Assembly: GCF_003675875.1 (NCBI RefSeq)
Contig: NZ_RCDI01000002.1
Coordinates: 746,786-810,785, forward strand
Direction: 5' to 3'
Source of the DNA: Halostella limicola
Lineage (GTDB): Archaea > Halobacteriota > Halobacteria > Halobacteriales > Natronoarchaeaceae
DNA length: 64,000 nucleotides
Of the stretch, positions 1,350-20,218 are shown in pieces. How positions within the stretch are numbered: position 1 is the stretch's first letter; the number at the start of each line of letters is the position of its first letter. Position numbers and translations under genes: made by a program. The notes under the pieces were generated by a model. The model ran no database searches and was not told where the DNA came from. It saw only the letters and a list, made by a program, of their open reading frames with translations.

Positions 1350-1479
1350 CGCTCGAAACAGCGCGAACAGTCGATTGACGGGTGTCCGCTTGCTTTCTAA
1401 CTAAACGAGCGGTCTTTCTAGAGTTTCTAGAATAGTGGTACTGGTTACCTCAGCGGCAGTGGATATGCTTGTACGGTAG

Positions 1480-1695
1480 GGTTCCATCCAAGACTGCTCT
1501 CTGTGTCGGCCAACGTTCGTCGAACGCGACCACGAGGAGTCCGGCGCGACGGCGCTTGCCGCCGGCGAAGTGACGATGACGCCGTCCTACACCGACCGCC
1601 CGAGCGTCGCGGCACATGCGAACGCGTTCTTCCGCGAGTACGACGGGGCCGAGTTCACCGAGCGGCTGAGCCTCGAACTCGTGCCGTCGAAGTGA
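1480..1695 (+). pseudogene. Degenerate coding fragment, C-terminal remnant
   Basis: An open frame without a start codon runs from a stop at 1477-1479 to a TGA at 1693-1695. It reads like a genuine haloarchaeal C-terminus (FVERDHEESG ... LSLELVPSK), with GC-rich third positions and acidic residues. The opposite strand at about 1700-1860 also reads like protein (GETVEIESGDDRSRRIRIED). No family was recognised. I read 1.48-1.86 kb as remains of one or two decayed genes at the border between the GC-rich first gene and the AT-richer region. Confidence 0.35.
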
Positions 1696-1859
1696 GAGGC
1701 TGAGGCTCGGCTGTGCGCCGACGGTTGGCGGCCGGCGACCTCTCGGTCGAGATCCTCGATCCGGATCCGTCGAGACCTGTCATCCCCCGATTCGATCTCG
1801 ACGGTCTCGCCGGCGCTGTTCGCCACGACGATACAAAGTTCGAACTGAGACGAACCCTT

Positions 1860-2382
1860 ATTCCAGAGTCCCGGGAGTGAAATGACTATTTCCTCTTTCC
1901 TGTGGTGACGCGGCCTAGGATCGGTTCTAATCTATGCCATTCTTATTCTTGGTTGTATGAGAATTCGCAGGGCGGCTCTGGAGTATACATAGAGTTCGCT
2001 CGGGTGATGTCTCGGGAATTCACGCGATCGCACTTGTTCGGCTGAATTGATAATCGTGGCCTCCGTTCACTCCGGGAAGTGCAGATGATCTATCTCGTCC
2101 CCCGGACGCTCTCGCTGATACTCCAGAACGCTCCCGTACGTCTCGTCCGATCAATGCTCGACCGGAACTCTGGTCTTCGGACTGGCGATGAACTCGCGAT
2201 CTTCGGCGTCGATTACACGACGAAGCGGCCAGATCTCTCCCTCCAGATCTTGCTCACTCCAAGCAAATTTTCTCATTGAAGAACCAATGATTTCTTTTCT
2301 CGATGTCATGTGGGTGTCTTATAAATATTCCTACATGATTGGGGAACTAACCCCTGCTCCGAGATCATTCGCCACAGAGAAA
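1860..2382. other. Non-coding AT-rich stretch upstream of the IclR gene
   Basis: About 520 bases with no convincing gene. Short open frames here have no family resemblance and no haloarchaeal codon bias. The right end leads into the promoter of the regulator at 2415. Confidence 0.5.
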
Positions 2383-2390
2383 CTATTAAT
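2383..2390 (+). promoter_or_regulatory. TATA-like box for the IclR gene at 2415
   Basis: The sequence CTATTAAT lies about 30 nt before the ATG at 2415. This is the spacing expected for an archaeal TATA box and a leaderless or nearly leaderless transcript, and it favours ATG 2415 over an in-frame TTG at 2409. Confidence 0.5.
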
Positions 2391-2414
2391 ACTGTTTGTC
2401 CATGAGTATTGTTC

Positions 2415-3179
2415 ATGGGGAACACAGGAAAGAGAGTCAACGCAGTCGGCAACTCACTTGAGATCCTACATTTAATAAAATCGGAAGAAGGGGCGCGTCT
2501 CTCCGATATAGCTACTCAGCTAGAACTTTCGAAGAGCACCGTACACAGCCACCTCAATACTCTCCAGAGCTACGGTTATATAACGAAAAAAGGAGAAATA
2601 TACCGCCTGGGATTGAAATTCTTCCACGTTGGTCAGCACACTCGGAACCGGAACGACAGGTACCAATTAGCGAAAGAAAAAACATCTGAACTAGCGGAGT
2701 CGTTGAACCATGCAGTGGATTTCGACGTTGAGACAAACGGAAAGATCATGGTTCTCTTCCACGAAGCCAACGAATCGACTGAAGTCGGCCTGAAGGAGGG
2801 AGATTACCTACATCTTCACACTAGTTCGACCGGGAAAGCTATCCTCGCCGAATTACCCGAAAAGCGGGTTACTGAACTTCTCGACAGAGAGAGAATGCCT
2901 AAGGAAACTGAGTATACAATCACCGAACCTGACAACCTCAGAGAAGAACTCCGAGAAACGAGTGAACGTGGCTATGCCATCGTCGATCAGGAATGGTTGG
3001 AGGGGCTCCGAGCAGTCGGTGTTGCTGTGACTCTCCCGGACGGTAGTCCGTTCGGAGCATTAAGCGCTGGCGGTCCGACGTACCGGCTCACCACGGAGAC
3101 GATCGAAACGGACGTTGCTCCTAAACTTATGGAAACTGCGAAAGAACTAGAGGACGAGATCAGCAGGGTAGTCGAGTAG
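2415..3179 (+). CDS. IclR-family transcriptional regulator (first of three)
   Basis: A 254-residue regulator. An N-terminal winged helix-turn-helix covers about residues 8-60 (NAVGNSLEILHLI, then LSKSTVHSHLNTL). The C-terminal IclR effector-binding domain follows, with the conserved LHTSSTGKAILAELP segment and ERGYAIVDQEWLEGLRAVGVAV. The family usually senses small organic acids and controls an adjacent catabolic or uptake operon. Here the peptide/organic solute ABC transporter at 3.8-11.2 kb is the natural target. The ATG at 2415 was chosen because it fits the family start and the TATA box. It is AT-richer than the flanking core genes. The effector is unknown. Confidence 0.92.
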   Translation: MGNTGKRVNAVGNSLEILHLIKSEEGARLSDIATQLELSKSTVHSHLNTLQSYGYITKKGEIYRLGLKFFHVGQHTRNRNDRYQLAKEKTSELAESLNHAVDFDVETNGKIMVLFHEANESTEVGLKEGDYLHLHTSSTGKAILAELPEKRVTELLDRERMPKETEYTITEPDNLREELRETSERGYAIVDQEWLEGLRAVGVAVTLPDGSPFGALSAGGPTYRLTTETIETDVAPKLMETAKELEDEISRVVE

Positions 3180-3769
3180 AGATACCCCTCGGTCAGCGCA
3201 TTGCATGTTTTACCCTCATAGTGGCTCAACCACGGATGTCAGATAGTCGTTCGCGGAAGCTACGGACGCAGATACCAGCGTATAAATATCAATAGAAGTC
3301 GAAGGAAGAACATCCTTCTATGTTTTGCGATAGCGAACTATTTTACACGACCAGCGGGCTTGACAGCGGGTTTCTCATATCTGTCCGTGGTAAAGGAGAT
3401 ATCAATCACGCTGATAGTATAGACTACTACTAAATAATAAGTAAAATATTATGGATATATTATACTACTCATTACGTACATAGGAGTGTAAAAAGAGCGT
3501 CGGTATCTCCTTGTGGTTTTATAGAGAAGGTCGGTGGCGTGATATTCATGATGAAACGATCACGTAATAAATATTATAGCACGGAATATCAAAATAACAT
3601 TGGTCTGATACTCAGGATCTCCTTGATCCCGCCACGATCATTAGTTCCGATCTTTTGTTCCTTATCACCGAACTGTTATACGGGGACAAGTACCGAATGG
3701 TGTGCCTCGTCTAATGTCAATCTCACCATCTATTCAGCGACGTAACCTCGGGAAATACGAGCGAAGCAA
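3180..3769. other. AT-rich convergent intergenic region
   Basis: About 590 bases between the convergent IclR gene and the ATPase gene on the minus strand. It is very AT-rich, with runs such as ATAATAAGTAAAATATTAT near 3435. One 68-codon open frame (3539-3745) has no protein-like character. No recognisable gene, remnant or RNA was seen. Confidence 0.5.
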
Positions 3770-4792
3770 TCAATTGCGGAGCACGGGAGCTTCCTGTACC
3801 TCTTTTTCGTTCTCATCATGGTAGAGGTAACATCTCACGTTTCGGTCCTCAGCTTCTGCTAGACCGGGTTCTGCGTTCTCGCAGACATCCATCTTCTCGG
3901 GACAGAGAGGATGGAAGTTACAACCACTGACCTGCCGCTGATCCGTGTCGTCAGCGGAACTAGTGAGGAGAACACGCTCACGCTCGGTAGATAAATCTGG
4001 AAGACTGCGCATGAGTGCCTGTGTATACGGATGTTTGGGTCGCTTCATGATCTCTTCTACGTCGCCTTCCTCAACGATCTTCCCGCTATACATGACACCG
4101 ATCTTGTCCGCGACGAGACGCGTGAGGGCCAGATTGTGGGAGATAAATAATATCGTGAAATCCAGCTTGTTCTGGAGGTCTTCTAATATCTTCAGAATAC
4201 CGGCTTGAATGGAAACGTCAAGCATCGACATCGGCTCATCGGCGATAAGTAAGTCTGGTTCCAGAACTAATGCCCGTGCAATGTTGACTCGCTGTAGCTG
4301 CCCACCGCTGAGTTGCGCCGGATACGTCTGCAGGAACTCCTCTGGCGGTCGCAGGCCGACCTCGAAGAGAAGCTCTCGGACGCGGTCTTCAGCGTCAGCT
4401 GTCTCGTAGCCATAGTTCTTCAACGGCTCAGAGACAGACTGGAGGACTGTTTTCTTCGGGTTCAGACTGCCATAGGGGTCCTGGAAGATGATCTGAGCCT
4501 TCCGTCGGAACTCATGTAACTCACGACGGTCGAATTCGAGTATGTTCTCTCCGTCGAAGTATATCTCCCCGGCCGTCGGCTCCTCGAGACGAATGACGGC
4601 TTCCCCGAGCGTAGATTTCCCCGATCCGCTCTCACCGACTAATCCGTACACCTCTCCCTGTTCGATCCTCAGGTCAACGTTGTCGACAGCTTTGATACGG
4701 TTTTTCTTCCCCAGGAGTGAGGCGAGTAGCCCCCCGGAATCCTCGTAATACTTTTTCAAACTTTTCGTTTCGAGTATCGCATTATCGGACAT
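3770..4792 (-). CDS. Oligopeptide/dipeptide ABC transporter ATPase (OppF/DppF type)
   Basis: A 340-residue ATP-binding subunit of a peptide/nickel-type importer. Walker A is GESGSGKST at residues 53-61, the signature is LSGGQLQRVNIARAL, and Walker B is LLIADEP followed by MSMLD. The C-terminal extension contains the cysteine-bearing oligopeptide/dipeptide segment (CNFHPLCPEKMDVC), which marks OppD/OppF-type ATPases. Its start overlaps the end of the partner ATPase gene by 11 nt, so the two are translationally coupled. It should power the permease pair at 9281-11190 from the cytosolic face. Confidence 0.93.
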   Translation of the reverse strand: MSDNAILETKSLKKYYEDSGGLLASLLGKKNRIKAVDNVDLRIEQGEVYGLVGESGSGKSTLGEAVIRLEEPTAGEIYFDGENILEFDRRELHEFRRKAQIIFQDPYGSLNPKKTVLQSVSEPLKNYGYETADAEDRVRELLFEVGLRPPEEFLQTYPAQLSGGQLQRVNIARALVLEPDLLIADEPMSMLDVSIQAGILKILEDLQNKLDFTILFISHNLALTRLVADKIGVMYSGKIVEEGDVEEIMKRPKHPYTQALMRSLPDLSTERERVLLTSSADDTDQRQVSGCNFHPLCPEKMDVCENAEPGLAEAEDRNVRCYLYHDENEKEVQEAPVLRN

Positions 4793-5798
4793 GTTCTATC
4801 TCCTCCTGTCGCCAGTCCACGTCGAAGGCTCGCCGATTGAGTTCCTCGAACTCGTCGGCGCGATAGCAGGCGCTCTCGATATCGGCGCGCGCCGACTCGA
4901 ATGGCGGATGGGCCTCGTGGCACTCCGGAACATCGAACGGACACCGATCTACGAATCGGCACTCACTCGACAGCGATCGGAGGTCCGGGGGATCCATCTC
5001 CATTCGAATTAGTTCTTCCAACTCCGAGTTGATGTTTGGAAGGGAATTTTTCAATCCGATGGTGTACGGGTGCGTCGGCTCCTCGAACAGCTCGCGGCTC
5101 GGCCCCTTTTCGACGACCTTTCCGCCGTACATCACCATCAGGGAATCACTCGTCTCCACGAGGTCCGCGATATCGTGTGACACGAAGATTATCGAAATAC
5201 CGAGTTCGTCTCGGAACCGTTCGATATCGCTCAGGATTTTGTCTCGAACGAGTACGTCCAACCCCGTTGTCGGTTCGTCGGCGATGATCAGATCCGGTTC
5301 AAGAATCATCGCCATGGCGACGATGACGCGTTGTTTCATTCCGCCGCTCAGCTGGTGGGGATACGCTTTGAGCCTGGATTCGTCGATATCGACCATTGAG
5401 AGGACTTCTTTGGCCCGTTCAACCGCCTCACGCTTTGTGGTCGAATTGTTGACAGTGAGAGGTTCGATGAGTTGTTCCTTGATAGTCGCTACGGGATTGA
5501 GACTGTTCATCGCCGCTTGAGGAATGTACGCGATCTCGTTCCACCGCATCTCTCGCAACCGTTGATCGGACATCTCGAGGATGTTCTCCCCGTGGAGAAG
5601 TATTTCGCCAGACGTGATATGAGCGTTCGGCGCGAGGTGTCGGACTAGCGCTTCGGAGAGGGTGGATTTCCCGCATCCGGACTCTCCCAGTAAGCCCGTA
5701 ATTGTTTGTGATTCAAGTTCAAACGAGATGTCATCTAAAGCGTGTATCCGGCCGTCGTCCACCTCGTAATACAACGACAAGTTATTCACTGATAGCAT
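4782..5798 (-). CDS. Oligopeptide/dipeptide ABC transporter ATPase (OppD/DppD type)
   Basis: A 338-residue ATPase subunit. Walker A is GESGCGKST near residues 38-46, the signature is LSGGMKQRVIVAMAM, Walker B is LIIADEPTTGLDV, and the C-terminal cysteine segment is CRFVDRCPFDVPEC. The open frame continues 55 codons further upstream, but that part is not protein-like. The family N-terminus (MLSVNNLSLYYEV) starts at 5798, so that start was chosen. It is first in a two-gene unit with the OppF-type gene and is separated by 255 nt from a divergent MFS gene. Two different ATPases per transporter is the rule for Opp/Dpp systems. Confidence 0.92.
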   Translation of the reverse strand: MLSVNNLSLYYEVDDGRIHALDDISFELESQTITGLLGESGCGKSTLSEALVRHLAPNAHITSGEILLHGENILEMSDQRLREMRWNEIAYIPQAAMNSLNPVATIKEQLIEPLTVNNSTTKREAVERAKEVLSMVDIDESRLKAYPHQLSGGMKQRVIVAMAMILEPDLIIADEPTTGLDVLVRDKILSDIERFRDELGISIIFVSHDIADLVETSDSLMVMYGGKVVEKGPSRELFEEPTHPYTIGLKNSLPNINSELEELIRMEMDPPDLRSLSSECRFVDRCPFDVPECHEAHPPFESARADIESACYRADEFEELNRRAFDVDWRQEEIEHVR

Positions 5799-6053
5799 GT
5801 TCTGACGTCCTCGTCTTGTGGCGCGGTTTTCCGATCTGGTGATGCGTTTCGGTTCCATACAGAGACCGGACGGGCCGTTGGTTGTGGGGTGTTGTGCTAC
5901 CAAATACCATTCTCGTTGGTATACACCACCCTCTCGCATTAAAAACCTTCCCCACTGAGTCATCTAAGACTGGCTCGTACATCTATAAATAAAGATAATC
6001 GGCCGCATGATCGGAACAGAAATATCGAACTTCCCTACAATGAGTAGTGGGGA

Positions 6054-7256
6054 ATGAGATCCAACACAGTCCGAGCCGTCTTTTCAAGATGGAGTGATCG
6101 TTTCACCGTCCTCTCGCTCTGTGTTGGGTCGTATTTCGCCGTTCGATTTACTCAGGTCCTCATAGGACCGGTCGTACCTGAAATCACGAGAACATTCGAC
6201 GTCTCCAAGGGAGCAATCGGTGTAGCACTCACTGGGATGTGGGTCGCGTATGCGCTCTTTCAGCTACCGAGTGGAGTCTTCGCAGATCGGTTTGGGGAAC
6301 GTCGGCTCATGCTCGTCGCGCTTGGGACCATTACTTGCGCGACGCTCGGACTAGCGACTGCACCGACGTTCCAACTGTTCGGTCTCGGCGTACTGGCTTT
6401 GGGAATCGGAGCGGGGATATACTATAACCCGGCGACGGCGCTGCTTGCTCGGGAGTTTGACGAGGTGGGATGGGCAGTTGGCATGCACCGGACCGGCGGG
6501 CAGGTCGCTGGGATAGCGGCTCCCGTTGCCGCGACGGTTATAACCGTTCGATACGGATGGCGGGCAGCGATCGCCGTCGGGTTCCTTCTCACTGTCGTCG
6601 CTGTCATCCTTTTTGCCTGGCAAAGTACAGTGGGCACTCCAGCCCGACCGACTGCCTCACTGAGTGAGTTATTCGAGCCATCCAACCTCCTGGCGTTGCT
6701 GATCCGTCCTCACACGCGGTATACTACTCTCATAGCTACGCTCGTGGAGTTCGTCGGTTTGGCCTCGATGGCGTTCTTACCAACCCTCTTTATCGAGCAT
6801 TCCGGCTTCTCAAGCAGGAGGGCAAACCTGCTATTTGCGCTCTTCTACGCAACTACCGCTCTCTTCCAGCCGCTCGGTGGCTGGCTCTCTGGCCGCATTG
6901 GCCGCGACGAGACCATCGCCTTTCAGGCGATCGCCGGTGTCCTCGGCTATGGAGTGCTCGTCATCGGTGATAGGCTCATCGTTGCTGTTCCTGCCGTAGT
7001 GCTCGCTGGGAGTGCTATAAGTAGTATGCCGGTAATCCAATCACGGATGATGGACGAGTTATCGGCAGCGGACCAAGGACGAGGATTCGGTCTCTTTCGA
7101 ACTCTCTACCTCCTGGTCGGTGCGCTGGGAACGACGGTAATGGGATCGACCGTTGATGTCGCTGGTTGGGAGACGGCAACTGGTCTCCTTGCGGCACTAC
7201 TCGCAGTCGTCGTTCTCTCGCTCATGCCCAAGATAATCGACTACGACTGCCGATGA
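6054..7256 (+). CDS. Major facilitator superfamily transporter
   Basis: A 400-residue membrane protein with about 12 predicted hydrophobic segments. It has the MFS loop 2-3 motif (GVFADRFGERR, residues 74-84) and a weaker repeat in the second half (GGWLSGRIGRDE). It lies between the divergent ATPase pair and the binding protein gene of the ABC system, so it may export a product or import a related solute. The nearest recognisable types are bacterial and archaeal organic-anion carriers, but the substrate cannot be read from sequence. Confidence 0.85.
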   Translation: MRSNTVRAVFSRWSDRFTVLSLCVGSYFAVRFTQVLIGPVVPEITRTFDVSKGAIGVALTGMWVAYALFQLPSGVFADRFGERRLMLVALGTITCATLGLATAPTFQLFGLGVLALGIGAGIYYNPATALLAREFDEVGWAVGMHRTGGQVAGIAAPVAATVITVRYGWRAAIAVGFLLTVVAVILFAWQSTVGTPARPTASLSELFEPSNLLALLIRPHTRYTTLIATLVEFVGLASMAFLPTLFIEHSGFSSRRANLLFALFYATTALFQPLGGWLSGRIGRDETIAFQAIAGVLGYGVLVIGDRLIVAVPAVVLAGSAISSMPVIQSRMMDELSAADQGRGFGLFRTLYLLVGALGTTVMGSTVDVAGWETATGLLAALLAVVVLSLMPKIIDYDCR

Positions 7257-7532: not shown

Positions 7533-9260
7533 ATGGCAAAGAGACGCCCCTACGAGCAGCTCCCGGATTCCCTCAAGGAGGCGAAGCGTCGTCAGGTGCT
7601 AAAATCACTCGGTGCCGTGGCAGCGGCTGGTTCCCTAGCAGGGTGTTCGTCTGGAGACGACGATAGCCCCGACCTCGCGGGGCGAGGTAGCGACGACTAC
7701 GGGGACACCATCGAACTAAGTATCGATGCCCCTCGCCTACAGAATATTCCCGATATCATGCGAGACATCGGTAACCACTGGGAGCAAGAACTCGGTATCA
7801 CATTCAATATCGAAACGACTTCCTGGGGGACCTATCTTGACATGATTTGGATCCAACAAGACTATGAGAACGTCGCCTGGACGTTCTTCGGAGGTTCACC
7901 GGAACGGTTCGACCCGCAGTTCTTCCTTTCGGTACACACCCCTGATAACCCACAGAACGTCTCGAATTGGACTGATCCGGAATACACCGAGCTTTACCAA
8001 GAGTACACTCGCACGTTTGACGAAGAACGCCGGAACGAGATCGTCGGCGAAATGCAAACTATGTGGCACGAGGACCACGCCTCGACGGTCAACATTTGCT
8101 GGCCAGTTGATCTGTTTCCGTATGATGCCGAACGGTGGAACCTTGAACCGACGACGATGATCGGCGCTGGTGCCGCATCAACGATGACCCTTATCACAGC
8201 TGAACCACAGGGGGACGAAACATCTCTCATAATCGGTGGTGAGGAAGTAAACCAGCGTCCGAACGTTACCGCACCAACGGCAAACGCAATGGACTGGTTA
8301 TTCCGATCGGTCTATGATACGTGTAGACGGTTGAGCTTGGACGGTGAATTCATAAACTGGGCTATCGAGAACTTCGAGGTCATCGACGAAACCACTATCG
8401 ATCTCACACTCCGCGAAGGAATGGAGTTCCATGACGGGGAGCCAGTCACTGCAGAAGATTTACAGTTCACCTTCGAGTTCCTGAGTTCATACACGTTTGG
8501 GAAAATCGACACACACGTACAACCGATAGACAGCGTGAGTCTCGAAACGGATCTGACGGCGCGAGTACATCTTGAAGACCCGTGGGCGAACTTCACAACT
8601 AATACACTCGTTTACACGTGGATTCTACCAGTTCACATCTGGGGAGATGTACCGAATCAGGTCGATGAACCGGTTAACTGGAGTCAAGAGGTTGGCAATA
8701 ATCCGCCCGGCGACTGGGCAGCAAGCGGACCCCTGCAGGTCCGAAGTGTTTCACCTGAGCGGATCGAACTCGAGGCCTACGACGATCACTTCAGTGATTA
8801 TCCCCAATACGACGAGCTGATCTACCAACGCCAGGGAAGCGAGGAGGCCGTTCGCAGTGAACTGGTCGAAGGGAACATCCACGCGAAGCTACAGGTTCCA
8901 TCAGTGTCCATGGCTAACCAGGCGGCAGACCAGGGGGATCATATCGAGTTGATCGAAGAGGACTCGCTGTTGACACAGTGTTATTCGTTTAATGTCAACA
9001 ACTCACCGGGCGATGATTTGGTATTTAGAAAGGCCCTGAGAGCGTGTACTAATGCGAATCAGATGATGCAAGTCCATCGACGCGGACATGCTGTTGAAAG
9101 CGATTCCACGTATATCCACCCGGAACATCCGTTGGAACTCGGGAGAGACGACCTCCCGACAATGCCGGAGATGTATGATCCGGAAAACGCCAGGCAAATG
9201 CTTGAAGATGCCGACTACGCCTGGGATGATAATGGACAGCTCCGGTATCCGAGCGACTAG
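7533..9260 (+). CDS. ABC transporter solute-binding protein (SBP_bac_5 family), apparently circularly permuted
   Basis: A 575-residue secreted lipoprotein. A twin-arginine signal (RRQVLKSLG, Arg19-Arg20) ends in lipobox LAGC with Cys38, so it is exported folded and lipid-anchored outside the cell. The mature part has the segments of family 5 peptide-type binding proteins in an unusual order. Residues about 58-200 resemble the canonical C-terminal part (EQELGITFNIET ... DPEYTELYQEYTRTFDEERR ... EMQTMWHED). After them comes the canonical N-terminal part (REGMEFHDGEPVTAEDLQFTFE, about 294-315). The protein then ends at residues 548-575 (YDPENARQMLEDADY ... LRYPSD), exactly where the canonical C-terminal part would continue. 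It heads an operon with the two permease genes. Confidence 0.88.
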   Translation: MAKRRPYEQLPDSLKEAKRRQVLKSLGAVAAAGSLAGCSSGDDDSPDLAGRGSDDYGDTIELSIDAPRLQNIPDIMRDIGNHWEQELGITFNIETTSWGTYLDMIWIQQDYENVAWTFFGGSPERFDPQFFLSVHTPDNPQNVSNWTDPEYTELYQEYTRTFDEERRNEIVGEMQTMWHEDHASTVNICWPVDLFPYDAERWNLEPTTMIGAGAASTMTLITAEPQGDETSLIIGGEEVNQRPNVTAPTANAMDWLFRSVYDTCRRLSLDGEFINWAIENFEVIDETTIDLTLREGMEFHDGEPVTAEDLQFTFEFLSSYTFGKIDTHVQPIDSVSLETDLTARVHLEDPWANFTTNTLVYTWILPVHIWGDVPNQVDEPVNWSQEVGNNPPGDWAASGPLQVRSVSPERIELEAYDDHFSDYPQYDELIYQRQGSEEAVRSELVEGNIHAKLQVPSVSMANQAADQGDHIELIEEDSLLTQCYSFNVNNSPGDDLVFRKALRACTNANQMMQVHRRGHAVESDSTYIHPEHPLELGRDDLPTMPEMYDPENARQMLEDADYAWDDNGQLRYPSD

Positions 9261-9280: not shown

Positions 9281-10258
9281 ATGAGTCTCCATAGATATGT
9301 AATTCGCAGAACTGTTCGGTGGTTCGTTCTGATCTGGTTATTGCTGACGATTATCTTTCTGCTGTTCAGAGTGACACCTGGTGACCCGACCGGCTTCCTT
9401 GTCGGCGGACAGTTCTCGGAGGAAACGCGTCAACAAATCTTGGAAAGTTTTGGTTTGCACAGACCGCTTCACATCCAATACTACATATTCGTGAAGAACA
9501 TATTGTTAGCTGGCGATCTAGGTGTTTCGTTTCACTACCGACAGCCGGTTTCTGAGATTATAATCCCGAGGATGATAAATACATTATTAATCATGCTACC
9601 GGCTATGTCGTTGATCATGCTCACGGCCTACTCGTTGGGATCGCGATTAGGTTGGCGGAAAGGAGAACGGATCGAACAGATCGGCTCATACACGCTCGTG
9701 GCGATACGGTCGCTGCCACACTTCGTACTCGGACTGTTCCTCCTCATGATATTCTCTACATGGTTAGACATACTCCCGACTGGTGGCATGGGTCCTATTG
9801 AAACGGGACGATCATCGGTCCAAGAAATGTTGCTCGATCCGGTTTTCTACAAATATCTCGCGTTACCGTTTTTAACAGCATTCCTCTTCTTCCTCGCTGA
9901 CCCGTTCCTCCTGATGCGGGGGAATATGATCAATCAGAAAAACCAAGACTACGTCGACCTGCTGCGGCTCAAAGGTCTTCCAGAAGGCCACGTTCGCAAT
10001 CAGGCAGCCAGAAACGCGTTACTCCCCCTGTTGACGTACGCAACACCAGCTGTTGCTATCGCGTTTGGCGCCCAGATCCTGATTGAAATCGTGTTTTCGT
10101 GGCCAGGAATCGGCCGTGAACTGGTCGAATCGGTCCATAGAAACGACTATCCGGTCGCGCAGGGCGCATTTTTCATCATCGGGTTCCTTGTCATCACTAC
10201 GAACCTCATCGTTGATCTCCTCTACGCCTACGTCGACCCGCGGATCAGATACGATTAG
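9281..10258 (+). CDS. Dipeptide/oligopeptide ABC permease (OppB/DppB type)
   Basis: A 325-residue inner-membrane permease with six hydrophobic segments. The N-terminus (YVIRRTVRWFVLIWLLLTIIF) and the cytosolic coupling region (DYVDLLRLKGLPEGHVRNQA ahead of LLPLLTYATPAVAIAFG) are typical of the family. The conserved FSWPGIGRELVESV segment follows. It starts 21 nt after the binding protein gene and forms the translocation pore with the OppC-type protein. Confidence 0.93.
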   Translation: MSLHRYVIRRTVRWFVLIWLLLTIIFLLFRVTPGDPTGFLVGGQFSEETRQQILESFGLHRPLHIQYYIFVKNILLAGDLGVSFHYRQPVSEIIIPRMINTLLIMLPAMSLIMLTAYSLGSRLGWRKGERIEQIGSYTLVAIRSLPHFVLGLFLLMIFSTWLDILPTGGMGPIETGRSSVQEMLLDPVFYKYLALPFLTAFLFFLADPFLLMRGNMINQKNQDYVDLLRLKGLPEGHVRNQAARNALLPLLTYATPAVAIAFGAQILIEIVFSWPGIGRELVESVHRNDYPVAQGAFFIIGFLVITTNLIVDLLYAYVDPRIRYD

Positions 10259-10263
10259 TAACC

Positions 10264-11190
10264 ATGATAAAGAATTTACTCAACCCCACTGGCGTCGAAA
10301 CCCAGAAGCTAGAACAGATAAAAAAGAGTATAGTGGAGTTTCTCCAACCGCTTTGGAAGGGTATACTCCGTCGGATAGCCGTCATGACTCTCTCCCTCTT
10401 CGTTGTTCTCGGCGTCATCGCACCGTATCTCCCACTCCCCAATGCGTACGAGACGATGCAACGAAGTAACGGGGAATACGTCTTGCTCGAGCCACCAAGC
10501 GGAGAGTTCCTACTCGGTACCACCGAAGGCGGATACAACGTCTTTGCCCAGACGGTTCTAGCGACCCGGACGTCTCTCAAGATCGGTTTGTTCTCGGCGA
10601 TGGTGCTCATCGTCATCGGTCTGAATATCGGTCTTATCGCCGGCTACTACGGTGGCTGGGTCGAGACCATCCTCATGGGCATCGACGACCTCGCATACGG
10701 GATGCCGTTCCTTCCGTTCGCCATCGTTTTCGTTGCGGTAATTGGGCAAAGTACTTGGGTATTAGTCGCGGTGATCGGTTTATTGCTCTGGCGTGGCATC
10801 GCCAGGGTCGTCCGATCAGAGACGCTATCGTTACGGGAACGGGAGTTCGTGAAGAGTGCACGAGCTTCCGGATCAAGCAATATCAAAATAATGTATTTCC
10901 ATATCCTCCCCAACCTCCTCCCGATAATTATCGTCTACTTCGTCTTGGGGGCTATCTATGGAATCTTGATCGAAGCTAGTCTCAGCTTCGTCGGCCTTGG
11001 CGATCCGACCACGATCAGCTGGGGGATGATGCTCTTCGACGCGTTCCAATCCGGCGCGTTCACCACCGCCTGGTGGTGGGTGCTTCCGCCGAGCTTCGGG
11101 CTGTGGCTATTCGTTTGGAGTCTGTACACGGTCGGACGAGCGCTTGAAGATAATCTCAACGAGAATCAGCTTGGCGGCCTCACGGAATGA
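10264..11190 (+). CDS. Dipeptide/oligopeptide ABC permease (OppC/DppC type)
   Basis: A 308-residue membrane permease. It has the N-terminal amphipathic segment and first transmembrane helix, an external loop, and five more helices. The ATPase-coupling motif is REREFVKSARASGSSNIKI, followed by LPNLLPIIIVYFVLGAI and then EASLSFVGLGDPTTISWG, which is diagnostic of OppC/DppC. It starts 5 nt after the OppB-type stop, so it is cotranscribed and probably translationally coupled. It is the last gene of the plus-strand transporter operon. Confidence 0.93.
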   Translation: MIKNLLNPTGVETQKLEQIKKSIVEFLQPLWKGILRRIAVMTLSLFVVLGVIAPYLPLPNAYETMQRSNGEYVLLEPPSGEFLLGTTEGGYNVFAQTVLATRTSLKIGLFSAMVLIVIGLNIGLIAGYYGGWVETILMGIDDLAYGMPFLPFAIVFVAVIGQSTWVLVAVIGLLLWRGIARVVRSETLSLREREFVKSARASGSSNIKIMYFHILPNLLPIIIVYFVLGAIYGILIEASLSFVGLGDPTTISWGMMLFDAFQSGAFTTAWWWVLPPSFGLWLFVWSLYTVGRALEDNLNENQLGGLTE

Positions 11191-13738: not shown

Positions 13739-15058
13739 TTAGAAGACTTCGTCGATGGCCTCGTCCAGGACGGAGACGGCTGTATCGATGTCTTCGCGGT
13801 CGGCACAGAACGGCGGAGCGACCATTATCTGGAAAGGTGGACGGCCCGGACCGAACAGTGCTCCGTTCTCAGCCGCCCTGGCAACCACCTCTTTGACGGG
13901 ATTCCGGCCGTCTTCGATCCGGGGATCGAAGACTGGATTGCCCGTCTCCGGATCGGTGAACTCGATCGCATAGAGGAATCCGCGTCCTCGGATGTCGCCC
14001 ACGACGTCGTGGTGAGAGAGTCCCTCAAGTTGCTTCTCGAGTTCCGGGGCGAGTTGGCAGACGTTCCCGATCTGATCCTCGTACTCGTCCATTGCCGCGA
14101 TGCCTGCTGCACAGGCGAGCGGATTGCCGGCGAATGTCTGGCCAACGTCGATCCCTTCTTCCCGAAGGTGTGTTCCGATTCGATCGTTCACTAACACGCC
14201 TGCCAACGGCACATAAGCGCTGGTCACGCCCTTTGCGAAAGTGATCATATCGGGATCGAGGTTCTCTGTTTGACTCCCGAACCAGTCACCACATCTACCG
14301 AAGCCAGTGATAACCTCGTCGATAATCAGCAGGATATCGTACTTATCACAGAGTTCCCGCACGCGCTCAAAGTAACCTGGCGGAGCTGTGAAGGCACCAC
14401 TACTTCCTCCCACAACTTCGGTGACCAGCGCCGCGATCGACTCCGGACCCTGATTGAGTATCACGTACTCTAGGTGGTCCGCCGCTTGCTCAGCTAATGC
14501 CTTGGTCGACCGTGTATCAAACGGACCGTCAACTCCGGTGAATGGCGGTAGGAACTTGACGTTGTTCGTGGTGGCCGCGTGTGATTCCACAGCAAGCCGC
14601 GTCTCAGGATCACCAGTCATACCACCGGAAGCATATGTCGCACCGTGGTACGATCGCCAGCGTGTTAGAACCGTTGATGCGTCTTGGACTTCCCGTGCAA
14701 TCTGAATCGCCGCTTCGTTCGCTTCGCTCCCAGAAATTCCGAAGAAGACATCGTTTAGTGAATCCGGTGCGACCTCGGTTAGCCTATTAGCCAACTCCGT
14801 TCGCGTATCATTATCCTTCGCTGAAGAGACGTATTGGATCCGGTCAGCCTGTGATTTGATGGCTTCTGTGATCGCTTCATTACTGTGACCTGCGTTCACA
14901 CAATACAACTGTGAAGTGAAATCAAGATATTCGTTGTCATCACCGTCATAGACCCGAATCCCTTCTCCCCGATCAAGGGATATGGATTCTGTCCCGGGAG
15001 TATTCCAGTGAGCGATCGTCGAGTTCTCATTGGCCGTGATCGGTTCTTGCTCCGACAT
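13739..15058 (-). CDS. Class III aminotransferase, candidate taurine/omega-amino acid:2-oxoacid transaminase
   Basis: A 439-residue PLP enzyme. It shows YLDFTSQLYCVNAGH (44-58), SGSEANEAAI (109-118), RSYHGATY (135-142), Asp247 in LIIDEVITGFGR, and the Schiff-base lysine Lys276 in ITFAKGVTSAYVPL. The pattern is closer to actinobacterial and archaeal enzymes annotated as taurine-2-oxoglutarate transaminase than to acetylornithine or GABA transaminases. Neighbours are an ornithine-cyclodeaminase-family enzyme, a TRAP transporter and UspA. Taurine to sulfoacetaldehyde would feed the Xsc pathway at 35-40 kb. Other amino donors such as diaminobutyrate or beta-alanine remain possible. Confidence 0.85.
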   Translation of the reverse strand: MSEQEPITANENSTIAHWNTPGTESISLDRGEGIRVYDGDDNEYLDFTSQLYCVNAGHSNEAITEAIKSQADRIQYVSSAKDNDTRTELANRLTEVAPDSLNDVFFGISGSEANEAAIQIAREVQDASTVLTRWRSYHGATYASGGMTGDPETRLAVESHAATTNNVKFLPPFTGVDGPFDTRSTKALAEQAADHLEYVILNQGPESIAALVTEVVGGSSGAFTAPPGYFERVRELCDKYDILLIIDEVITGFGRCGDWFGSQTENLDPDMITFAKGVTSAYVPLAGVLVNDRIGTHLREEGIDVGQTFAGNPLACAAGIAAMDEYEDQIGNVCQLAPELEKQLEGLSHHDVVGDIRGRGFLYAIEFTDPETGNPVFDPRIEDGRNPVKEVVARAAENGALFGPGRPPFQIMVAPPFCADREDIDTAVSVLDEAIDEVF

Positions 15059-15441: not shown

Positions 15442-16449
15442 TCAGTCGCTAACCAAGCTAAATTCGGTGCCGAATCCCTGTTCGTCCGCGGATTCATACA
15501 CGAGACGGGCCGTAGCGATGTCCTGGATGGCCAGCCCAGTCGAATCGAAGACTGTTATGTCGTCGTCACCAGACTCGGGTGCTTCGCCGGTGACGACTTC
15601 GCTGAGATCGGCGTAAACGTCTTCTTGCTCGAGACGACCTTCGGCGACAGGAACGTTAATCTCGCCGCTGTGTGAACACTGCACCCAATCGTCGACGATC
15701 ACGTTTGCATCAACGAGAATCTGTGATTCCAGTTCCTGTTTCCCTTCAGCGTCAGCACCGATAGCGTTGATATGTGTCCCATCGGAAATCCATTCGCGTT
15801 TCAGAATCGGATCTTCGGAAGGTGTCGTCGTAGAGATAACATCACATCCTGCGACATCTTCTGGCGTTCCACTTACGACTTCGATATTGCGATCGTTCTC
15901 GTTTGCGATGAATCGTTCGATTGCCTTTTCATCAAGGTCAGACACGACCACCCGATCGAGATCGATAACGTTCGCGATGGCAGCGAGTTGCGCGTGTGCC
16001 TGTTGGCCTGCACCGAGGAGACCCAATGAATTTGCACCGGAAGGCGCAAGGTGACGAGTAGCAACACCGGCCACGGCTCCCGTCCTAAAGCGTGTCAGCT
16101 TCGTCCCGTCCATTATTGCTAGAGGATAGGCTGTTTCTGGGTCGCTATAGATAACAACGCCCATTACGGTGGGCAAGCCGAACGTTTCCGGGTTGTCCGG
16201 GTGGACGTTTACCCACTTGATTCCAGCTGAGTCCCCCACCGCCGCCGGCATCGCACGAAAGTCGCCATTGATCTCATCAAGATCGACGTATGATTTTGGC
16301 GGCATCTTTGCATCTCCGTTTTGATATGCGACAAATGCATCTTCAATCGCGTCGATGACGTTCGACATCTCAATACACTCTGTCAGTTCGTCGGGGCCGA
16401 TCATGAGAGTGCCCTGATTCGCTTGGTCTGATTCTTCTAGAGTACTCAT
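15442..16449 (-). CDS. Ornithine cyclodeaminase / mu-crystallin / archaeal alanine dehydrogenase family enzyme
   Basis: A 335-residue Rossmann-fold NAD(P)-dependent enzyme. Markers are KSYVDLDEINGDFRAMPA, the active-site segment MDGTKLTRFRTGAVAGVATRHLA and the nucleotide-binding SLGLLGAGQQAHAQLAAI. The family includes ornithine cyclodeaminase, archaeal alanine dehydrogenase, ketimine reductases and EutC of ectoine catabolism. An alanine dehydrogenase role would regenerate the amino acceptor of the neighbouring transaminase. The ATG at 16449 was preferred, although an in-frame TTG at 16455 is possible. A TATA-like TATTAAAA lies at 16477-16484. The exact reaction is not determined. Confidence 0.88.
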   Translation of the reverse strand: MSTLEESDQANQGTLMIGPDELTECIEMSNVIDAIEDAFVAYQNGDAKMPPKSYVDLDEINGDFRAMPAAVGDSAGIKWVNVHPDNPETFGLPTVMGVVIYSDPETAYPLAIMDGTKLTRFRTGAVAGVATRHLAPSGANSLGLLGAGQQAHAQLAAIANVIDLDRVVVSDLDEKAIERFIANENDRNIEVVSGTPEDVAGCDVISTTTPSEDPILKREWISDGTHINAIGADAEGKQELESQILVDANVIVDDWVQCSHSGEINVPVAEGRLEQEDVYADLSEVVTGEAPESGDDDITVFDSTGLAIQDIATARLVYESADEQGFGTEFSLVSD

Positions 16450-16499
16450 ACTCAATTGGCATATGAATAGCCCCCCTATTAAAATTTTCCACCATATAT

Positions 16500-17108: not shown

Positions 17109-19064
17109 TTACGTATATCCGAGCATTCGCGGTAGCCACAATGCGATGTCCGGGACAGCGATAACTAGGAGGAGGATTACCAATTCTATCAAAAAGAAAA
17201 TGATAAGGTTTTTACTAATATTTTCGATATTGGTATTCGCTATCGGCGCTGCCACGAACAGCGTTACGCCGAGTGGCGGCGTAATCATCCCCATCGCCAG
17301 CGTCATTATCATCACGATACCAAAGTGTAGTGGATCGACGCCGATTTCTACCGCTAATGGTGCGAACACTGGGGCCCAGAGAAGTATGTTGGCGATCGAT
17401 TCAATGAACAACGCTAACAGAGAGAGAATACCGACGATCAAGAGGAGTATAACTAGCTCACTGCTCGTGGTTGCAAGTATCACGGCGGCTATTTCATCTG
17501 GGACACCCGTGATTGCCATCAGTTGGGTTATTGGCATCGCTGCCCCGATGATAAACAGCGTTACACCGGACATTGTGGCCGCACTATAACTCGCTTTGAC
17601 GAATTCTGTAAGGGTGATCTCACGGTAGACAAAGATCCCAATCACGATCGCGTATAGCACGGCCACGCCACCGGCCTCTGTCGCGGTAAATACTCCAGAG
17701 AGAATGCCACCAATGATGATAAGTGGCATGAGAAGCGCGAACCCAGCGTCTTTGACGATGCCAATCGCCTCGGCCGTGTCCGGCCGTTCGCGGTGTTCAA
17801 CCTCTGGGAATTTTTCCCAACCAGTACGGTAACCAATGATGTATGTTGCGGCCATTAGACCAAGACCCATTAGGATACCAGGGATGACACCAGCCATGAA
17901 GATGCCGGCAACACTCACAGATGGAACTGTGATCGCGAAGATGATCATAATGATACTTGGCGGAATGATCGGTCCAATGACCGATGAGGAACAGGTTACC
18001 GCGCACGTGTATCCGGTATCGTACCCTTCGTCCTTCATGGACGGAATGAGGATGCTGCCCACCGCTGCGGTGTCAGCGACGGCAGATCCAGAAATACCTG
18101 CAAAGAGCATGCTCGATACGACGTTAACGTGAGAGAGCCCTGCTCGCAATCGTCCGACGATAAGGTTTGCAAAATTGATGATCTGCTGTGTGATACCGGC
18201 GATCGTCATAATCCGTCCGGCGTAAATGAAGAGCGGAATCGCCAAGATCGAAAACGAATTTATTCCTTGTCCCATCTGTTGGATGACTATCAGCGGTTGG
18301 AGGATTGCTAATCCGTTCGGGAAGAATAGCAAAAATATCAACGGACTAAGTGCCATCGCGAACGCGACCGGTGTATTGATGAGGATTAGGAATATGAGTA
18401 AAACAAATATTACAACTATTTGCAGGATACTATTGCCCGGGGGGGCAAAGTTGGTGAACGAGACGAAGGCACCACCGAGACAGAGGACAATAAGCGTGCT
18501 TAGTGCAATGTAGCTGTCGTCAACTAGGTCCTCAATTAATGTTCCGAGTATGCGCTGTCCGCCTTCGATAGTGAGATAGAATCCACCGATTGCAAGTGGG
18601 ATACGCGTCCAAAACATTGAAATCTGTGAGATTCCGAGGACTTCGTAGACGGTCTGGCTACTCGCCTGATCCAGCGCTAACTGTGCCCCCAGCTGTAACA
18701 TCGCGAATCCGAGAAGAACAACCAATCCATTGATGAATACTGTTGCACCTCGGGCGACGGATGACGGGAGTTTCTTATGGACGTACTGAATGCTTACGTG
18801 GTCCCCAACGTAATAGGCGATGGCTCCGCCAACGTACGTCACCCAGATATTCAGGATAATCGACGTACCTCCTGGCCACGGGAGGGCGTTATTAAGAACG
18901 TATCGAAAAAAGACGTTGATATTGATGAAAATCACGATACCAAGTAAGGCAGTAATCGATAGCCATTTCAGCACATACCGTATGGCCCACTCAAGATTTC
19001 TGAGTAGCGCTTCTACCTGTTCAATCCTTCCAACAAATGGATACTTATCTTTCTTTATAGCCAT
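17109..19064 (-). CDS. TRAP transporter permease, fused DctQ-DctM
   Basis: A 651-residue membrane protein. Residues 1 to about 185 are the four-helix small subunit DctQ (RYVLNNALPWPGGTS, then a loop and two more helices). The rest is the large 12-helix DctM subunit, with INTPVAFAMALSPLIF, LFIYAGRIM, GISGSAVADTAAVGSILIPSM, IGPIIPPSIIMI and ITPPLGVTLFVAA. Together with the DctP protein it should import an organic anion or zwitterion driven by the sodium or proton gradient. QM fusions are known in TRAP systems. It follows the binding protein gene by 56 nt in the same direction. Confidence 0.94.
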   Translation of the reverse strand: MAIKKDKYPFVGRIEQVEALLRNLEWAIRYVLKWLSITALLGIVIFININVFFRYVLNNALPWPGGTSIILNIWVTYVGGAIAYYVGDHVSIQYVHKKLPSSVARGATVFINGLVVLLGFAMLQLGAQLALDQASSQTVYEVLGISQISMFWTRIPLAIGGFYLTIEGGQRILGTLIEDLVDDSYIALSTLIVLCLGGAFVSFTNFAPPGNSILQIVVIFVLLIFLILINTPVAFAMALSPLIFLLFFPNGLAILQPLIVIQQMGQGINSFSILAIPLFIYAGRIMTIAGITQQIINFANLIVGRLRAGLSHVNVVSSMLFAGISGSAVADTAAVGSILIPSMKDEGYDTGYTCAVTCSSSVIGPIIPPSIIMIIFAITVPSVSVAGIFMAGVIPGILMGLGLMAATYIIGYRTGWEKFPEVEHRERPDTAEAIGIVKDAGFALLMPLIIIGGILSGVFTATEAGGVAVLYAIVIGIFVYREITLTEFVKASYSAATMSGVTLFIIGAAMPITQLMAITGVPDEIAAVILATTSSELVILLLIVGILSLLALFIESIANILLWAPVFAPLAVEIGVDPLHFGIVMIMTLAMGMITPPLGVTLFVAAPIANTNIENISKNLIIFFLIELVILLLVIAVPDIALWLPRMLGYT

Positions 19065-19120
19065 TTTATTTTAAATTTTAACCCTACTAATTAGTTTCGG
19101 TGGTAGCGATTCGGTCTACG

Positions 19121-20218
19121 CTATATATCAACACCGGGCGGTTGATAGTCCTGATAATCTAGAACTGCTTTGACAGTGTCCTCTGCAACACCTTCCTCAC
19201 CGAGCCACTCATCATACACGGAGCTAGCGGCCGATTGCCACTCAGTTAACTCGTCATCTGTCGGAGTGTAGATCTCGATATCGGAATTTTCCTCTTGGAT
19301 CGTACTTTTCGCTTCTTCACCCTGCTGGATGTCCATTTCGATCTGCTGTGGCGTGACCTCACTGATTGATTCGTTTAGTATACTCTTTTTGTCCTCCGAC
19401 AGACTATCCAGCGTGTCTCTATTTATATGTACAATAGCCGGACTGTCCTGTGTCGCGGTTTCGACAGTGTAATTTATCTGCTCAAACATGTCAGAGTTAT
19501 ATAGCCAGAAATAGTGGATATGGATCCCATTTACGGTTCCTTGTTGCATTGCAGAGACGGTCTCACTCCAGGCAATTGGACTCGGACTCAGATTCCACTG
19601 GTCGATCGTGGATTGTTCGATAGGTGATTCAGTGACGCGTATTTTCTGCCCGTCTAGATCGCCCGGCGTCTGTGCGCCCGGATTAGACGTGAAATGGAGA
19701 TGTCTCATACTCCCTCCATTACTTCCCCAATATGATAGTACCTGTATATTATCCAAATCTTGGTATGCTCGCTGGTTGATCTCTTCGACGATGTCTGCAT
19801 TGTTCCAGAAGTCGTACATGTCGCTATGCGATTTCCACAGATATGGTAGCTGTGAAACTAGCCACGCCGGCGTCAGTCCTGCAAGGTTGTTCACCGCTGA
19901 CAGTCCTATGTCCAGACTCCCGGACTGAACCGATTGTGTGATCTCAGGCGGGCCACCGGCTTGTTGACAACAGATAACATCCAGAGTTAGTTCGCCGTCG
20001 GATTTCTCTTCGACAGTATCCGCTAACAATTGGGCACCCTCGTAATGAGCACTTCCCTGATTCCCTGACAGCGCGAACGCAAGTTGTGACCGATCATTAT
20101 CAGTACCACCGCCACCACTGAAACACCCGGCCAAGCCAGCTAGGCCAACTGATCCTGCACCAGCGAGTCCCTTCAGTGCGGCTCTCCGGTTAAACTGCGA
20201 ACTGTGATCATCTGCCAT
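19121..20218 (-). CDS. TRAP transporter solute-binding protein (DctP family)
   Basis: A 365-residue secreted lipoprotein. A twin-arginine signal (NRRAALKGLAGAGS) ends in lipobox LAGC near residue 32, followed by a glycine-rich linker. The mature domain has DctP features, including DLDGQKIRVTESPIEQ, which carries the conserved substrate-carboxylate arginine, and SETVSAMQQGTVNGIH. A TATA-like element at 20243-20252 lies about 29 nt upstream of the ATG. It captures the solute for the fused permease next to it. Known DctP ligands include C4-dicarboxylates, sialic acid, ectoine, taurine and isethionate, so the ligand here is open. Confidence 0.93.
   Translation of the reverse strand: MADDHSSQFNRRAALKGLAGAGSVGLAGLAGCFSGGGGTDNDRSQLAFALSGNQGSAHYEGAQLLADTVEEKSDGELTLDVICCQQAGGPPEITQSVQSGSLDIGLSAVNNLAGLTPAWLVSQLPYLWKSHSDMYDFWNNADIVEEINQRAYQDLDNIQVLSYWGSNGGSMRHLHFTSNPGAQTPGDLDGQKIRVTESPIEQSTIDQWNLSPSPIAWSETVSAMQQGTVNGIHIHYFWLYNSDMFEQINYTVETATQDSPAIVHINRDTLDSLSEDKKSILNESISEVTPQQIEMDIQQGEEAKSTIQEENSDIEIYTPTDDELTEWQSAASSVYDEWLGEEGVAEDTVKAVLDYQDYQPPGVDI

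Follow-up and report, generated by a model that had tools for sequence, protein, structure and literature searches.

A circularly permuted family-5 solute-binding protein in Halostella limicola, with relatives in archaea and bacteria

The solute-binding protein (SBP) encoded at 7533-9260 of the window, the whole 64,000-nucleotide stretch of Halostella limicola DNA analysed here, is almost certainly a circularly permuted form of the ancestral family-5 fold that acts as substrate-binding component of a Dpp/Opp-type ABC importer. Homology and fold were already known; the permuted order is, to judge by the open-access literature, not known for family 5, and it is common. The open reading frame on the plus strand begins with ATG, is uninterrupted by stops and encodes 575 residues. 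The gene and the parts of its product are as follows.

7533..9260, plus strand: gene for the circularly permuted family-5 solute-binding lipoprotein, 575 aa (ORF, Pfam SBP_bac_5, swapped DppA/OppA matches)
7533..7646, plus strand: Tat signal peptide and lipobox, residues 1-38 (RR at 19-20, AGC with Cys38; read from sequence)
7704..8156, plus strand: old C-terminal segment, residues 58-208, now leading the chain (matches to DppA 395-498 and OppA 378-478; structural alignment when folded alone)
8157..8213, plus strand: new junction from old C-terminus to old N-terminus, residues 209-227 (spacing in permuted homologues)
8214..9257, plus strand: old N-terminal and middle part, residues 228-575, ending at the cut in a helix-strand loop, DDNGQLRYPSD (Pfam SBP_bac_5 6-286; structural alignment to DppA 1-345)

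Membership of family 5 (PF00496) was evident by sequence, with a Pfam SBP_bac_5 score of 115.9 bits against a curated cut-off of 32.4. In its natural order, the protein covers only positions 6-286 of the 368 in this profile, at residues 277-570. When an un-permuted copy was made by rejoining residues 216-575 with 45-215, a single SBP_bac_5 stretch of 6-358 was obtained at 124.4 bits, and single stretches were also obtained for the NCBIfam profiles Opp4A (83-519 of 556) and NikA-type (44-453). The family-5 fold is complete, with no part missing or duplicated. Although identity to E. coli DppA and OppA and B. subtilis AppA is low (about 20%), phmmer aligned residues 397-561 with DppA 209-367 and residues 78-182 with DppA 395-498, in swapped order, and residues 79-183 with OppA 378-478. 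Moreover, the first part alone hit the C-terminal positions of the DppA and OppA profiles. The canonical co-linear order is absent; the C part precedes the N part, as in a permuted variant of family 5, and this reversal of order in the alignments lies far beyond chance.

The original prediction, made from the letters of the sequence, had described a clean circular permutation of an SBP_bac_5 protein, and both the swapped DppA/OppA matches and the single-stretch alignment of the un-permuted copy bear this out. Separate alignment of the two parts to the family gave the swapped order for both, and neither a co-linear order nor a pair of unrelated domains was seen. The motifs also lie where they had been placed: ELGITFNIET and DPEYTELYQEYTRTFDEERR fall within the first third, EGMEFHDGEPVTAEDL is near residue 294 and LRYPSD closes the sequence. 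The proposed Tat lipoprotein signal at the new N-terminus was likewise recovered within residues 1-38. Residues 19-38 (RRQVLKSLGAVAAAGSLAGC) are compatible with a Tat signal and a lipobox with Cys38, and R19, R20, G37 and C38 are invariant in an alignment of 30 haloarchaeal homologues.

The chain order was further evaluated by structure prediction, with comparison to solved structures by sequential aligners and the pieces aligned separately. The AF2 model, built from 30 permuted homologues, had a mean pLDDT of 81 and a pTM of 0.78. As a whole it aligned to solved SBPs only over residues ~226-575, which superposed on chain residues 1-345 of DppA (Z 21.3, 321 residues aligned) and 18-358 of AppA (Z 23.7, 336 residues aligned). 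For the first part folded alone (pLDDT 82, pTM 0.56), nearly all alignments fell on the C-terminal portion of family-5 SBPs, namely on DppA 336-498 (Z 6.7), AppA 349-510 and OppA 349-507. These alignments had modest Z scores (6-9) and high rmsd (8-10 Å), as expected because the first part is half a domain. In the predicted models, the two structural ranges complement each other along the canonical chain, and the cut falls close to DppA residue 345, in a loop before a second-lobe strand. The comparison with OppA and DppA that had been suggested as a check thus agrees with the permuted reading, within the limits of sequential, piecewise alignment.

Single alignments of the window SBP reached homologues of full length and the same order throughout Halobacteria. 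A junction-spanning profile (A2, E <= 1e-31) matched the permuted order in 262 of 391 sampled haloarchaeal genomes, about two thirds, and in 73 of 86 genera, a favourable outcome for the suggested check on haloarchaeal relatives; among the matches listed from this search, all ~150 cross the junction. A two-profile order test, applied to proteins from the scan of named genomes with the junction-spanning profile, separated the sampled proteins cleanly into permuted (C-N) and canonical (N-C) forms, and the permuted order was kept in 63 homologous proteins. Permuted members are also present in Alphaproteobacteria, Clostridia, Deinococcota and further groups. Neorhizobium galegae and Ketogulonicigenium vulgare are among the bacteria with a homologue. 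Bacterial isolates with a permuted member include Aliihoeflea, Nitratireductor, Martelella, Aquamicrobium, Marinibacterium, Dethiosulfatibacter and Anoxynatronum, and metagenome-assembled genomes (MAGs), whose assignments may be wrong, include Trueperaceae, Desulfobacteraceae, Atribacteria and Micromonosporaceae. Junction-crossing matches were present in 8 of 190 alphaproteobacterial genomes and in 4 of 148 from the class that includes Dethiosulfatibacter, and at least 35 plasmid records carry a full-length match in permuted order. The permutation is neither recent nor unique to Halostella limicola.

An error of assembly or of the gene model, such as an ORF running across parts of two tandem SBP genes, can mimic a permutation. 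Such an artefact is refuted in practice, because independent genomes in their hundreds, and plasmids by the dozen, show the same order and the same cut; the single uninterrupted ORF and the invariant residues conserved in both parts also speak against it, and its chance is negligible.

Several observations were made on individual genomes. Halostella limicola itself has a second permuted SBP paralogue on another contig, in addition to four canonical paralogues; this second copy (L005:1483-3264; G000:C4:229030-230790, minus strand) has 594 aa and is very divergent, with about 24-29% identity to the window SBP. Halobiforma nitratireducens (L094) has two adjacent permuted SBP genes, at 1439-3562 and 4069-6462, one with a long insertion. 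In Halolamina pelagica CDK2 (L054:3617-5500), the last part of the permuted SBP continues in another frame, matched (5e-07) in the final portion of an overlapping ORF, which makes a frameshift or a sequencing error likely. Junction-crossing matches were also found in three archaea of the same phylum belonging to a family (f15) outside the haloarchaeal families (G549:C2:104620-105393, G482:C7:7259-7978 and G529:C29:22699-23427), suggesting that permuted SBPs extend beyond Halobacteria among archaea.

The permuted homologues share one architecture. In nearly all of them the tail runs on for 2-16 residues beyond one and the same position, pointing to a single cut point, and in 61 of 63, archaeal and bacterial alike, the profile ends are separated by a junction of about 17-22 residues. 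In a tree of 85 rows built on un-permuted sequences, all 46 permuted rows fell on one branch (SH-aLRT 96), together with one long-branch canonical haloarchaeal row. Constraining the permuted rows to one clade was not rejected by the AU test on a 49-row version (p-AU 0.34). The canonical row inside this group, and the three changes that the short C-part tree requires, count against a single origin. Bacterial and archaeal permuted members interleave in the tree, which suggests gene transfer between the two domains. The common cut and junction in all sampled members are consistent with a single old origin followed by spread across domains.

We infer that the permutation was most likely one ancient event, probably a tandem duplication followed by in-frame fusion and trimming. 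The old C-terminus, the last strand of domain I, would have been joined through the short junction to the neighbouring old N-terminal strand, and a surface loop of the second lobe, lying between the helix that ends in ...EDADYAWDD and the strand ...DTIELSID, would have become the new opening of the chain. The new N-terminus would then have received an export signal of its own, and the permuted gene may later have spread between archaea and bacteria, in a direction that is likewise presumptive. At one homologue, a 1336-codon open frame was considered as a fused intermediate and rejected, being only the surrounding frame of a matched protein of ~570 aa.

The same order could also arise if the C-terminal part of an SBP were lost and a similar segment from a different SBP gene were added in front, a chimera of the kind that the authors of the TpMglB-2 study weighed for their own Treponema protein (PMC4990184). 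The first part is the less conserved part of the window SBP, and in the C-part tree it groups less firmly with the other permuted rows, as a chimera might. Against this, trees of the two parts broadly agree and give nearly identical grouping, the short C-part tree being less resolved, and the cut is exact, with no loss or duplication. We regard a chimeric origin as very improbable.

A second, differently cut permutation was found in Clostridia, in proteins of Parablautia, an Enterocloster MAG and Dethiosulfatibacter (L103:2960-4657, L111:2897-4657 and L121). The two Lachnospiraceae proteins (L103 and L111) have the order N-tail, C, N-head, and the Dethiosulfatibacter relative is 52-56% identical to them. 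As in the window SBP, the cut falls within the stretch of chain belonging to the second lobe, but at another site, before the ...DVRVRQALAYAID... region. The nearest relatives of this second form are canonical (L127-L135), with 44-52% identity over both halves. Residues 313-580 of L111 correspond to residues 99-367, and residues 73-309 to residues 375-611, of one canonical protein, with 49% identity each; this near-equal match of both halves to one canonical gene also argues against the chimeric origin discussed above. The match of L111 to its canonical relative is direct evidence that the family-5 fold is permuted in nature without foreign parts. Joining both permutations in one clade was not rejected either (p 0.157; AU test, 49-row tree), and the two are taken to be independent because their cuts differ and the second has un-permuted close relatives. 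On this sequence evidence, the family-5 fold appears to have been permuted at least twice.

The transporter genes of the window are located on both sides of the SBP gene.

9281..10258, plus strand: DppB-type permease (Pfam BPD_transp_1 and BPD_transp_1_N), 21 bases downstream of the SBP stop
10264..11190, plus strand: DppC-type permease (Pfam BPD_transp_1)
4782..5963, minus strand: OppD/DppD-type ATPase (Pfam ABC_tran and oligo_HPY; NCBIfam OppD/DppD)
3770..4792, minus strand: DppF-type ATPase (Pfam ABC_tran and oligo_HPY; best NCBIfam match, dipeptide ABC transporter ATP-binding protein)

Permease genes of the Dpp/Opp type thus directly adjoin the SBP gene, a feature of family-5 membership, and the DppD and DppF genes lie upstream on the minus strand, outside the SBP-DppB-DppC transcription unit. 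Same-strand DppB, DppC and usually DppD genes follow the permuted SBP gene at nearly all loci of both permutations, the second resembling the window locus in having a permuted family-5 SBP followed by DppB/C/D. We infer that the protein's most likely fold is that of an ordinary clamp with two lobes, closing on a small substrate (peptide or amino-acid-like), which would be handed to the DppB/DppC permease encoded just downstream, with power from the DppD/DppF ATPases of the opposite strand. Alternatively, the protein may have kept the fold but left the importer, serving as a sensor or other receptor that uses its lobe-II anchor differently. The membrane anchor is now on lobe II and the ATPase genes are apart from the SBP-permease unit in the window, both of which would fit such a receptor, but DppB and DppC follow immediately downstream, in the window and at nearly all relatives, and we consider this departure from import unlikely.

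As to the substrate, the neighbouring genes (an ArgE/DapE deacylase, a class-III aminotransferase and an alanine dehydrogenase-like gene) were considered and judged too weak a guide. The aminotransferase (13739-15058) and the alanine dehydrogenase-like gene (15442-16455) stand beside TRAP transporter genes at 17109-20218 on the minus strand, a fused DctQ-DctM permease and then a DctP binding protein. In the DppD ORF (4782-5963, minus strand), the NCBIfam matches begin at residue ~55, and the true start is probably internal, about 55 codons downstream.

E. coli DppA and OppA and B. subtilis AppA (cluster C, PF00496) are homologous to the window SBP over the whole fold and have the same operon partners (DppB, DppC, DppD and DppF); in contrast to them, the window SBP has its new N-terminus in lobe II, and a short junction links its old termini. 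An SBP with a natural circular permutation has been described in Treponema pallidum Tp0684 (TpMglB-2), a "Type Ic" protein with a ligand-binding clamp that is present in other species too (PMC4990184). TpMglB-2 is a type I, cluster B glucose/galactose-binding protein whose cut alters the N-lobe (PMC4990184). It is like the window SBP in being naturally permuted, but represents a different structural class and an independent event: the window SBP is not type Ic, since in sequence as in structure all its matches are cluster C proteins of family 5, and its cut is at DppA ~345. TpMglB-2 was the one relevant precedent found in the open-access literature, which yielded no published account of a circular permutation in family 5, an absence that is weak evidence. 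The main text of CIRPIN (PMC12667903), a 2025 preprint on permutation finding, says nothing of SBPs. The original prediction had called such a permutation unusual in this family; in its occurrence it is common in haloarchaea and extends to bacteria.

For TpMglB-2, permutation was proposed to be an adaptation to anchoring (PMC4990184). As judged by a simple pattern test for the lipobox, the first permutation occurs both in lipid-anchored members (haloarchaea and some Gram-positives) and in several Alphaproteobacteria with no recognisable lipobox, and this mix bears on the proposal. Anchoring does not suffice to explain the permutation and was rejected as its reason, since plain signal peptides are found in several alphaproteobacterial members. 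We speculate, tentatively and as a possibility less probable than its absence, that family-5 SBPs have been permuted at least twice with the new ends in lobe II each time, and that one form is old and widely transferred because ends or an anchor on lobe II usefully change opening, closing or docking. Two cuts within one family provide a natural test of how far a large two-lobed clamp tolerates new chain ends, and the close canonical relatives of the second permutation allow direct comparison. Methods of annotation and structure search that depend on chain order detect these proteins only in part, so that the permuted lineage is labelled simply "ABC transporter substrate-binding protein"; the annotated plasmid-borne matches all bear the plain label of substrate-binding protein.
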